Assembly: GCF_947503415.1 (NCBI RefSeq)
Contig: NZ_CANNDS010000002.1
Coordinates: 496,001 to 560,000, forward strand
From: an uncultured Tateyamaria sp.
GTDB taxonomy: Bacteria; Pseudomonadota; Alphaproteobacteria; Rhodobacterales; Rhodobacteraceae
Direction: 5' to 3'
Length of the DNA: 64,000 nucleotides
Positions 48,918 to 52,793 of the stretch are shown here, one piece after another. A program made the translations under genes and the position numbers. The notes beneath the pieces were generated by a model. That model worked only from the letters and a program-made list of their open reading frames with translations. It searched no databases and was not told where the DNA came from. Numbering within the stretch: position 1 is the first letter of the stretch; every line of letters starts with the position of its first letter.

Positions 48918-49445
48918 TTACGCCGCCTTGTGGGTGCCCCGGATCGGGTAGTCATTGGCACGCACAAAGTTGATGCCGTTCAGCACGCCTTGCAGGTCGG
49001 GGCGCAGGAACGGCGCGTTGGACACATCGACCATCTGGATGCTGCCCTCCCCGTTTACGACAAACAGGCCGGGCTCCGCAAACGGGCGGTCGGTTTCGTT
49101 CGGACTGCGCGGGTCGGACACATACAGTCCCAGCGTCTTCATCTGCTCCACGGACATCCCATGGCCCAGCCTGATGCTCAGCCCCTTTTCCTCGGCCATG
49201 GTCTGCGCCTTGTCTTGCGGATCGCCCGATACGGCCACAACATCCACACCCGCCTCATTGAACTGGCTCTCAAGCTCTTGCAACTGCGCCAGATATTTCT
49301 TGCACAAGGGGCAGTGCAGACCGCGGTACACGACCACCAATTGCCAATCGTGCCCACCTTGCGGCGCACCCAATGTCAACGTCCCGCCGCCCAATTGGGC
49401 AACCTCGAATTTCGGAAAGTCAGAGCCAGCGGCCAAAGCAGTCAT
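48918..49445 (-). CDS. AhpC/TSA-type peroxiredoxin-like protein
   Basis: Likely start MTALAAGSDFPKFEV; VVVYRGLHCPLCKKYLAQLQELES. Confidence 0.88.
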   Translation of the reverse strand: MTALAAGSDFPKFEVAQLGGGTLTLGAPQGGHDWQLVVVYRGLHCPLCKKYLAQLQELESQFNEAGVDVVAVSGDPQDKAQTMAEEKGLSIRLGHGMSVEQMKTLGLYVSDPRSPNETDRPFAEPGLFVVNGEGSIQMVDVSNAPFLRPDLQGVLNGINFVRANDYPIRGTHKAA

Positions 49446-49551
49446 ATCGGGAACCCCGTGTAAATTTGCGTTGCATCCCACCTATGCGGACATCCCAAGG
49501 CTGCAACCCCATCCGCTTGACCCTTTCTGTGCGATGCTGCACGGGGACGTC

Positions 49552-50724
49552 ATGGACTACGACACGCTTGTCATCGGGGCCGGAGCGGCTGGCATGATGT
49601 GCGCCGCCCACGCGGGCGGGCGCGTTTTGCTTGTGGATCACGCCAAGGCGCCGGGCGAAAAAATCCGCATCTCGGGCGGCGGGCGCTGCAATTTCACCAA
49701 CATTTATTGCGACGCCAATGCGTTCATCAGCGAGAACCCCCATTTCGCAAAATCCGCCCTTGCCCGCTACACCCAATGGGATTTCATCGCGCTGGTGGAC
49801 CAGCACGGCATCCCCTGGCATGAAAAAACGCTGGGCCAGCTCTTTTGCGACACCTCCGCCAAGGACATCATCGCCATGCTGCGCGGCCTGCTGCAATCGT
49901 CAGGGGTCGAGACGCATTTGCAAACCGAGGTTACGGAATTTGCAAAGAGTAACGAAGGCTTCACATTTACCCTCAACGGCACCCGAGAACTCACTGCCCG
50001 CAATGCGGTCATCGCCACGGGCGGCAAGTCCATCCCCAAGATGGGCGCCACCGGCTTTGCCTATGACATCGCCCGCCAGTTTGGCCACCGGGTCACGCCC
50101 ACGGACCCCGCACTAGTGCCCTTCACCTTCCCCGACCGCCGCTTCGCCGACATCTCGGGCGTCGCCTGTCCGGCCCGTGTCACTGCAAACGGCCCCGGTT
50201 TCGACGAAGCACTGCTTTTCACCCATCGCGGCCTGTCCGGTCCTGCCATCCTGCAAGCCTCCAGCTACTGGGATGCGGGCGATCCGATCACCGTCCACCT
50301 CGCCCCGGACACCGACCTCGCCGCGATCCTGCGCGACAAACGCACCAGCGACGGCAAGAAGGCCCTGACAACCGAACTCTCCCGCCACCTGCCCGCCCGC
50401 CTCGTCGATCATCTCAGCACGCAGATGGACCTCTCGGGCCGCTTGGGTGACCTGTCCGATGCCCGCATCGACGCGCTCTCCCACGACCTCAGCCACTGGC
50501 ACCTCACCCCCGGCGGCACCGAAGGTTACCGCACGGCAGAGGTCACCCGCGGCGGTGTGGCCACAGACCAGATCAGCTCCAAGACCATGGAATCCCAAAC
50601 GACGCCCGGTCTCTATTTCATCGGCGAAGCGCTCGACGTGACAGGCTGGCTGGGGGGCTACAATTTCCAATGGGCCTGGTCGTCCGCCATGGCCACCGCC
50701 CGCCATCTCGCCTCGCAAAACTGA
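49552..50724 (+). CDS. HI0933/YhiN-like NAD(P)/FAD-dependent oxidoreductase
   Basis: Start MDYDTLVIGAGAAGMMCAAHAG; ISGGGRCNFTNI; GEALDVTGWLGGYNFQWAWSSA. Confidence 0.93.
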   Translation: MDYDTLVIGAGAAGMMCAAHAGGRVLLVDHAKAPGEKIRISGGGRCNFTNIYCDANAFISENPHFAKSALARYTQWDFIALVDQHGIPWHEKTLGQLFCDTSAKDIIAMLRGLLQSSGVETHLQTEVTEFAKSNEGFTFTLNGTRELTARNAVIATGGKSIPKMGATGFAYDIARQFGHRVTPTDPALVPFTFPDRRFADISGVACPARVTANGPGFDEALLFTHRGLSGPAILQASSYWDAGDPITVHLAPDTDLAAILRDKRTSDGKKALTTELSRHLPARLVDHLSTQMDLSGRLGDLSDARIDALSHDLSHWHLTPGGTEGYRTAEVTRGGVATDQISSKTMESQTTPGLYFIGEALDVTGWLGGYNFQWAWSSAMATARHLASQN

Positions 50725-50753
50725 CCGGCCGCGAAAGCGCGCAGCACCCGGTT

Positions 50754-51060
50754 GCTCCACGGTGCGGCTGGTAGCTTTTGCCGCGCTGCGCCCGTCGGAT
50801 CAACGGTGTGGCTGGCAGCTTTTGCAAGCAAAAGCAGTCCCTGCCACTGATTGCGCCTGCCTTCGCAGTCGGGAGACTATGCGCCCAGATGCTCCACGGT
50901 GTGGCTGACAGCTTTTGCATGCAAAGCAGTCCTTGCCACTGATTGCGTCTGCCTTCGCAGTCGGGAGCCGGTGCACCCGGAAGCTCCACAGTGTGGCTGA
51001 CAGCTTTTGCAAGCAAAAGCAGTCCCTGCCACTGATTGCGCCTGCCTACGCAGTCGCAAT
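50754..51060. repeat. ~92-bp intergenic tandem repeat (3 copies plus one truncated) with internal palindromes
   Basis: Copies anchored at gctccac 50754 (partial), 50803 (acggtg), 50891, 50983; each full copy carries GCTTTTGC-aa-GCAAAAGC or a variant. Confidence 0.85.
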
Positions 51061-51100
51061 CGATCTGTCTCGGAGCCGCGTTCGCCTGAGACCGAACAGA

Positions 51101-51188
51101 CTGGGGATGGGCTGACGGGCAAGCTGAAATGCGGAGGGTCCGTGCAAGCGGAAACCGTATTTCAGCTTGAGCGGCAGACCAGCCCCAG
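51101..51188. other. long two-stage hairpin (candidate structured RNA or hairpin element)
   Basis: Outer arms ctggggatgggctg/cagaccagccccag (12/14 paired) and inner arms aagctgaaatgcgg/ccgtatttcagctt (14/14 including one G-U) around a 20-nt loop, separated by a symmetric 6x6 internal loop. Confidence 0.75.
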
Positions 51189-51327
51189 TCAGGCACGGAT
51201 CAGGCGGGCGTGGATACGAGGCAGAGTTCTGTCTTGGTGAGCGTGAAGCTCATCCCAAATCAATAATGTCGTGCGCGCGAAGCGCGCTCCGCTGGATCAC
51301 ATCCGTCTCTTTCTACAGATCAATGGT

Positions 51328-51395
51328 GTGGGGCCGCGCATGCGCCTCGCGCATACGCTCACCCCACCGCCCCCTTTTCGCGACGCGAAAAGGGG
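51328..51395 (-). terminator. cruciform plus perfect palindrome immediately downstream of murD
   Basis: GTGGGG(51328-51333)/CCCCAC(51362-51367) enclosing ATGCGC-CTC-GCGCAT (51340-51354); then CCCCTTTTCGCG-A-CGCGAAAAGGGG (51371-51395). Confidence 0.55.
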
Positions 51396-51398
51396 CTG

Positions 51399-52793
51399 TC
51401 ACAACCGCCGCGTCACCTGATCCACGAAATCCTCACCGCGCCGCTCAAAGCTGTCATACTGATCAAAACTCGCAGCCGCAGGCGCCAACAACACCACGTC
51501 GCCGCTTTCCGCATCATCCATGGCAGCAGCGACAGCCTCCGCCATCGTCCCACACACCTGCGCCTCAACATCCAACTGCATCGCAAACTGCGCCGCCTCG
51601 CGCCCGATGACATAGGCCTTCTTCACTCGACCCGACACAGCATTCAACGGGTCCAACCCGCCCTCTTTCTGCAACCCGCCACAAATCCACCGAATGTTCT
51701 CAAAGGCGGACAAAGCCTTGGCCGCACTGTCCACATTCGTAGCCTTGCTGTCGTTCACATACCGCACGCCCGCCGCCTCAGCGATGGTCTGACTGCGATG
51801 CGGCAGACCTGCAAACTCATGAAACGCCTGCTCAATCACCTTTGGCGCCACCCCCACGGCACGGGCAGCGGCATAAGCGGCACAGGCATTCTGATGGTTG
51901 TGCGCCCCCGGCAAGCCCGCAACACCGCGCAAATCCACCGACGCCACCTGACGACCCTTGCGAAACTCGGCCAAAAACCCCTTCTTCGCAAAGACCTGCC
52001 ACCCCGGCCCGGTCAGCTTCTCCTCAACCGACACACGGATAACCCGGTCATCGCCATTGCCCTCGGACAACTGCCCCGCCAGGAACCGCCCCTCATGCTC
52101 ATCCACACCGATGACAGCGCGGTCCGGCCCCCCTTCGGCAAAAAGCCGACGCTTGGCTGCAAAATACCCGCCCATGCCCGCATGACGATCCAGATGATCG
52201 GGGGACAGGTTGGTAAAAACGGCCACATCGGGGGTCAGGCTCCGGGCCAGATCGGTCTGATAGCTGGACAACTCCAGCACCACGACCTCGCCATCATGGG
52301 GCGGCTCGATATCCAGCACACCGCGCCCGATATTGCCGGCCAACTGGCTGGGTCGGCCCGCCACCTCCATGATGTGATGGATCAACGCACAGGTGGTGGA
52401 CTTGCCGTTCGACCCGGTCACCGCAATCACGCGCGGGGCGGTGTCAAAGCGGTTCCACTCGGACGTCGCAAAGGATTGAAAGAACAGACCAATATCGTTG
52501 TCCACCGGCACACCAGCCGCCCAGGCCGCCACAATCACCGGGTTCGGAGCCGGGTACAAATGCGGGATACCGGGCGACACGATCAGCCGCGCGACATCCT
52601 CAAAAGCACCGTGGGTCCTGAGATCGGCACAGGCAAAGCCCTCGGCCTCGGCCCTCGCGCGCGCATCCGGGTTGTCGTCCCAACAGATCGGCACAGCACC
52701 CCCGGCCTCCAGCGCCCGCGCCGCCGACAGACCGGACCGGCCCAGCCCCAGCACCGCAACCTTGGCGCCCGACAAACCAAGGACAGGGATCAT
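51399..52793 (-). CDS. murD: UDP-N-acetylmuramoyl-L-alanine--D-glutamate ligase MurD
   Basis: 464 aa; [30 protein letters not shown]. Confidence 0.97.

Follow-up and report, generated by a model that had tools for sequence, protein, structure and literature searches.

Promoter and priming signals that are read on single-stranded DNA are best known from F- and ColIb-like enterobacterial plasmids, and short dispersed intergenic palindromic repeats such as ERIC and REP have been likened to MITEs. In the leading region of plasmid F, the transferred strand forms a stable hairpin, Frpo, ahead of ssb and of other leading genes (PMC9849209; PMC11541004); the word Alphaproteobacteria is absent from the main text of PMC11541004. 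The sso1 element of ICEBs1 was found through its conservation to the sso of Gram-positive rolling-circle plasmids and is orientation-specific, located near oriT, and thought to let second-strand synthesis be primed in transconjugants (PMC4595007). RU elements are short dispersed intergenic repeats that have also been likened to MITEs (PMC2759123).

Here we describe a hairpin from the window, a 64,000-nt stretch of DNA from an uncultured Tateyamaria sp. The hairpin is a member of a dispersed family of intergenic hairpins of approximately 160 bases in Roseobacteraceae, in which an orthologous locus may carry either of two interchangeable core types, A and B. On plasmids, the members resemble Frpo1 and Frpo2 of F, as the hairpin lies on the transferred strand before ssb or leading genes templated by that strand. 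They differ from the F hairpin, which in the F region that we inspected has an AT-rich apex and lies farther from the ssb start, and the family has a core (CGGAGGG/GGAAACCG) with a conserved internal loop, in which any -10/-35 boxes are putative. A fixed distance to the start codon and fork-oriented chromosomal copies set the family apart from sso1, for which neither is described in the available part of that report (PMC4595007). Like ERIC, RU, and REP, the family consists of short dispersed repeats between genes, but its near-complete pairing, plasmid leading-region core, replication-locked orientation, and the lack of a Y1 transposase in most carriers are unlike those elements. The window copy is chromosomal and lies in a convergent gap; thus it does not precede a gene in the leading region of a conjugative element, as a Frpo-type promoter does.

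Structure of the hairpin in the window

The initial annotation described an 88-nt two-stage hairpin at 51101-51188, and its sequence, coordinates, and inner and outer stems are as it gave them. Our analysis confirmed that the hairpin is real and that the element is bigger than first described (Table 1). One near-continuous stem spans 51064-51225, folding at -106.8 kcal/mol on the + strand vs. -85.7 kcal/mol on the - strand, and the inverted arms (51064-51134 and 51155-51225) were detected independently of folding. Comparable energies in shuffled sequences and homologues devoid of covariation had been named as grounds for doubt, and neither was observed. The 141 nt from 51075 to 51215 form a single stem of -91.3 kcal/mol, far below the -51.1 ± 3.8 kcal/mol of dinucleotide shuffles (z -10.6; 0/200), and covariation was found in core A, in core B, and over the whole element. 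The flanking pairs CGCCTGA (51083-51089) with TCAGGCG (51200-51206) are present in the window fold. The alternative pairing of TCAGGC (51189-51194), from which a conformational switch had been proposed, is absent from the 26-copy family consensus, so the switch lacks support. No Rfam match was obtained at gathering or relaxed thresholds, in agreement with the earlier remark that the element resembles no recognised riboswitch or sRNA, and no earlier description of the hairpin family was found in the literature covered, which takes in few subscription journals.

Table 1. Coordinates of the hairpin, its parts, and the neighbouring genes in the window.
Feature	Coordinates	Strand	Evidence or remark
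Whole hairpin element	51064..51225	+ (better-folding strand)	Fold, inverted-repeat arms, full-length covariation in 26 copies
Core type A, CAAGC..GAAATGCGGAGGGTCC..GGAAACCGTATTTC..GCTTG	51120..51169	+	Homologous to plasmid leading-region hairpin
Internal loop, 5' side, AGGG (conserved, asymmetric)	51135..51138	+	Invariant in alignment A1; type B equivalent AGGG(G)
Internal loop, 3' side, AA	51153..51154	+	Alignments A1 and A2; type B has ATA or AGA
Left outer arm, GTCTCGGAGCC..CGCCTGA..CTGGGGATGGGCTG	51066..51119	+	Present in copies of both types elsewhere
Right outer arm	51170..51222	+	Pairs with left arm; double changes in 27/40 outer pairs across copies
ORF ending in flavoprotein, convergent left neighbour	48955..50724	+	ORF; true start inside ORF
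murD, convergent right neighbour	51399..52793	-	ORF; named from sequence, without family scan; orthologues in 20/20 genus genomes

With the reservations that kinship of the sequences inflates such tests and that intrastrand correction of palindromes could mimic covariation, double changes occur in 4 pairs of core A (reached by 3/500 shuffles) and in 23 cells of core B vs. 6.1 in shuffled alignments (0/500), while the 26 copies of the whole element share 60 consensus pairs with covariation along the full stem, their 40 outer pairs holding 167 double-change cells, where shuffled alignments average 52 and reach at most 72. Judged from these alignments, the hairpin structure is under selection.

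The hairpin sits in the gap between the ORF ends at 50724 and 51399. The left neighbour is a flavoprotein that we take to be YhiN-like, and in most genomes of the genus its orthologue adjoins murD. Positions 50738-51060, immediately to the left of the hairpin, hold three to four tandem, imperfectly palindromic repeats of approximately 92 nt (TCCACGGTGTGGCTGACAGCTTTTGC...). This repeat is found on the same side of the hairpin in genome G002 (L004/L025) and occurs hairpin-free at the murD locus of G003; plasmid records searched with the neighbouring repeats gave no match. A perfect 12-bp inverted repeat (CCCCTTTTCGCG/CGCGAAAAGGGG) at 51371-51395, just past the murD stop, is likely a terminator, and other short hairpins occupy the position after murD in other genus members.

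A dispersed chromosomal family with two core types

A DNA search of 20 genomes found strong relatives of the window hairpin in the same genus, mostly at non-orthologous loci. At the murD locus, one other species carries a type A core, five carry type B hairpins whose outer ends are as in the window and whose core is different, and several have a short gap that is devoid of a hairpin. Similarly, three species have type A at the purL locus and two have type B, and others lack the hairpin there. At the purL locus of G002, G005, and G007 (L393, L398, and L392), a third, unrelated structured-looking sequence lies beside remnants of the same outer arms, and it is possibly another core type.

Models were built for each core, namely R1 for type A and R2 for type B. 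The window core scores 73 bits against R1 (E 7e-16), with the window copy itself among the sequences of that model. Type B copies, which are dispersed over loci, were detected by R2 in 12/20 genus genomes and 11/150 family genomes, with at most 15 matches per genome, a few matches being to the reverse strand of a copy already counted. Because R1 also picks up type B copies on the same strand, and because sequences intermediate between the two core types exist, A and B are regarded as one family whose members share an asymmetric internal loop of AGGG(G) facing A(N)A. No copy was found by R1 and R2 searches in several genus genomes, which implies that the element is dispensable. A class-wide model search gave a near absence of hits, although only 15 candidates per genome were scored, so that absence is not implied. 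Phage records did not match either core, and no plasmid match was obtained for core B.

The core on conjugative plasmids

Matches to the core were obtained in 93 plasmid records with a 162-nt query and in 155 records with the core alone; these are alphaproteobacterial, and 127 of the 155 carry conjugative typing. In annotated examples from Phaeobacter, Pseudosulfitobacter, Dinoroseobacter, Paracoccus, Rhodovulum, Magnetospira, Sphingobium, Novosphingobium, and pLB1, the hairpin directly precedes ssb or a short gene; in most it is in line with mobC and a MobA/VirD2-type relaxase gene. The distance from hairpin base to start codon in Alphaproteobacteria is mostly 56-62 nt for a 68-aa protein family and 54-69 nt for ssb, and it is 55 nt for a third unrelated leading-region gene family. 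The 68-aa family is a candidate early-establishment protein. In genome G067 (L092, G067:C8), two oppositely oriented hairpins less than 600 bp apart each precede their own small related gene by 57-58 nt, and a third match lies approximately 2 kb from the pair.

A core pattern scan of species genomes included, among the matches listed, many Rhodobacterales and Sphingomonadales, Neomegalonema, and Acidobacteria. At least five acidobacterial matches have the same core and, in gene contexts that derive partly from ORF heuristics, an SSB-like frame follows 86-91 nt downstream in 4 of 5, while two of the loci adjoin TrbI- and TrbB/VirB11-type conjugation genes, with a CagX-type gene in one.

Several variants were also noted. 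The genome of the window contains a plasmid-like contig (L022, G000:C5:262000-276000) with relaxase, MobC-like, and ParB-like genes; there, a 68-aa gene without a Pfam match is preceded by a type A hairpin of the contig's own leading region. In Rhodobacterales plasmids (L034, 5001-5055 and flanks), the core is nested in a palindrome of approximately 215 nt that takes in the Shine-Dalgarno sequence and start codon of the 68-aa gene, with a mirrored copy on the other arm. In sphingomonad plasmid cores (L035, L036, and L038), an extra side hairpin (GGCGC..GCGCC) between both core helices creates a three-way junction.

G.T pairs are tolerated in a folded strand, and A.C mismatches are expected if the other strand folds. 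Among 71 distinct cores read on the plasmid-orientation strand, consensus pairs hold 85 G.T vs. 2 A.C cells, in an alignment that was fitted to the model and that contains many rows found by a pattern fixing part of the core; two columns give most of the G.T cells, and the ratio is still 11 to 2 without them. A classical ATATCCTG^C nic-like site lies on the folding (+) strand beside mobC in two sphingomonad plasmids, and a similar site, TATTTCCTGCCA, lies on the folding strand in two Rhodobacterales plasmids. Given these sites, we expect transfer of the folding strand and a leading-region position of the hairpin. The plasmid members are thus stem-loops on the transferred strand, with oriT assigned by motif, upstream of leading genes templated by that strand; relative to the gene that follows the hairpin, the folding strand is antisense. 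Sigma-70-like boxes in the folded arm do not exceed shuffled expectation; the same scan also detected none in the Frpo2 region of F, which served as the positive control, so that the scan does not bear on the promoter reading either way.

Orientation of the chromosomal copies

Under DNA parameters, folding favours the same strand in all 57 chromosomal copies (27/27 and, in a second set, 30/30). The 20-kb GC skew of this strand is negative in 40/40 copies and, in the second set, 28/30, so that it is C-rich in 68/70, with copies that are partly non-independent (39 first-set loci form 19 orthologue clusters). Skew sampling of G002:C1 fits replication from an origin at about 3.3 Mb to a terminus at about 1.45 Mb. 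Leading strands are usually G-rich, and if this rule is valid here the folding strand is the leading-strand template, such that a primer or transcript begun there would run with the fork.

The direction of neighbouring genes is unbiased (mean coding fraction 0.47). Orientation relative to genes is variable, with many copies in convergent gaps and a left arm beginning at a stop codon, where counts of convergent and tandem arrangements are approximate owing to some spurious ORF calls. In a fabF-like cluster, all six genomes have the left neighbour antisense to the + strand, and most have the right neighbour antisense too. Chromosomal copies are locked to fork direction and not to gene direction, and this lock implies that something at the level of DNA or replication matters.

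Possible functions and alternative explanations

We tentatively favour, at somewhat less than even confidence, the explanation that the family core is a hairpin signal read on single-stranded DNA, acting as a promoter or priming site on plasmids and possibly in leading-strand priming on chromosomes. On plasmids this is favoured because the hairpins match Frpo, ssi, and sso in where they lie, in strand, in their constant distance from unrelated genes, and in folding. During conjugation, the transferred strand would enter the recipient and fold into the hairpin, which, set a fixed distance ahead of the first gene of the leading region, may then recruit the RNA polymerase of the host or a primase/primosome. 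The outcome could be early transcription, a primer for second-strand synthesis, or both, as with Frpo, ssi, and sso. On the chromosome, the hairpin may be used when the leading-strand template turns single-stranded, for example in re-priming of the leading strand. The data show a conserved structure with one folding strand, its place, spacing, and strand on plasmids, and the fork-locked orientation; we infer that a polymerase or primase recognises the hairpin, that it works as single-stranded DNA, and that it has a role on the chromosome. The leading-strand template of chromosomes is rarely single-stranded, which makes a chromosomal function speculative; use on such a template is our preferred but weakly supported reading. 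In its broadest form, namely an undescribed class of single-stranded DNA hairpin signals that is common to Alphaproteobacteria and Acidobacteria, starts transcription or priming on plasmid strands as they enter, and was adopted by Roseobacteraceae chromosomes as a fork-oriented site of leading-strand priming or restart, the proposal is unlikely.

The main rival, which is possible if somewhat doubtful, is a selfish or domesticated palindromic intergenic repeat of the ERIC, REP, or MITE kind that has no signal function on the chromosome and owes its orientation to insertion at forks or to selection against the stabler hairpin strand, through instability or toxicity, on the lagging-strand template. 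Dispersal, presence and absence at orthologous loci, the mosaic with other intergenic repeats, and the frequent placement in convergent gaps with the left arm right behind a stop codon are consistent with such a repeat, and the folding of a chromosomal palindrome into hairpins on the two strands has been studied in E. coli (PMC4245961). However, a selected function is suggested by the near-complete covariation of 160 nt, by the conserved internal loop, and by the recurrence of the core on plasmids of different orders. Moreover, the Y1 transposase (PF01797) was found in 4/20 genus genomes at E 0.001, three of them over the cut-off, and is missing from the other 16, the genome of the window included. 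Mobility of the RAYT/IS200 kind, as for a REP element, is unlikely since most carrier genomes lack this transposase. The MITE allowed for in the initial annotation survives as a dispersed repeat, but phage records give no match, plasmids match the core only, and no clean target-site duplication was resolved when filled and empty sites were aligned.

A structured RNA from the + strand, acting as a 3' UTR element, terminator, or small RNA, is less likely than a selfish repeat, and we consider it quite improbable. It would account for the strand-specific fold with G.U pairs, for the covariation, and for the many loci whose left gene has the + strand as its sense strand and whose left arm begins at the stop codon of that gene. 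On plasmids, however, the folding strand is antisense to the gene that the hairpin precedes, the neighbours in the fabF-like cluster are mostly antisense as well, and the constant orientation is to replication and not to genes; the window stem is not followed by a U run, and Rfam has no match. A sense 3' UTR RNA as a general rule is ruled out by that cluster and by the plasmids. Of the candidate structured RNA first proposed, the covarying structure and its homologues are retained, but action as RNA is doubtful, given the antisense folding strand on plasmids and the replication-oriented chromosomal copies. A double-stranded palindrome bound by a plasmid regulator, or an ssb mRNA leader, would explain the fixed spacing to start codons but is very unlikely, because the G.T to A.C imbalance, which a duplex operator would lack, points to folding selection on one strand that is not the mRNA-sense one.

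Implications

Even if the chromosomal copies are selfish, their near-complete orientation lock and the interchange of cores at fixed loci need explanation. If the plasmid part of the single-stranded signal explanation is true, two other groups would possess a counterpart, unrelated in sequence, to the signals of F- and ColIb-like plasmids, and the family would provide a sequence handle for locating leading regions and early genes in those groups. If the chromosomal part is true as well, an ordinary chromosome would bear replication-oriented elements with a conserved hairpin on the leading-strand template, and site-specific repriming of the leading strand would become directly testable.
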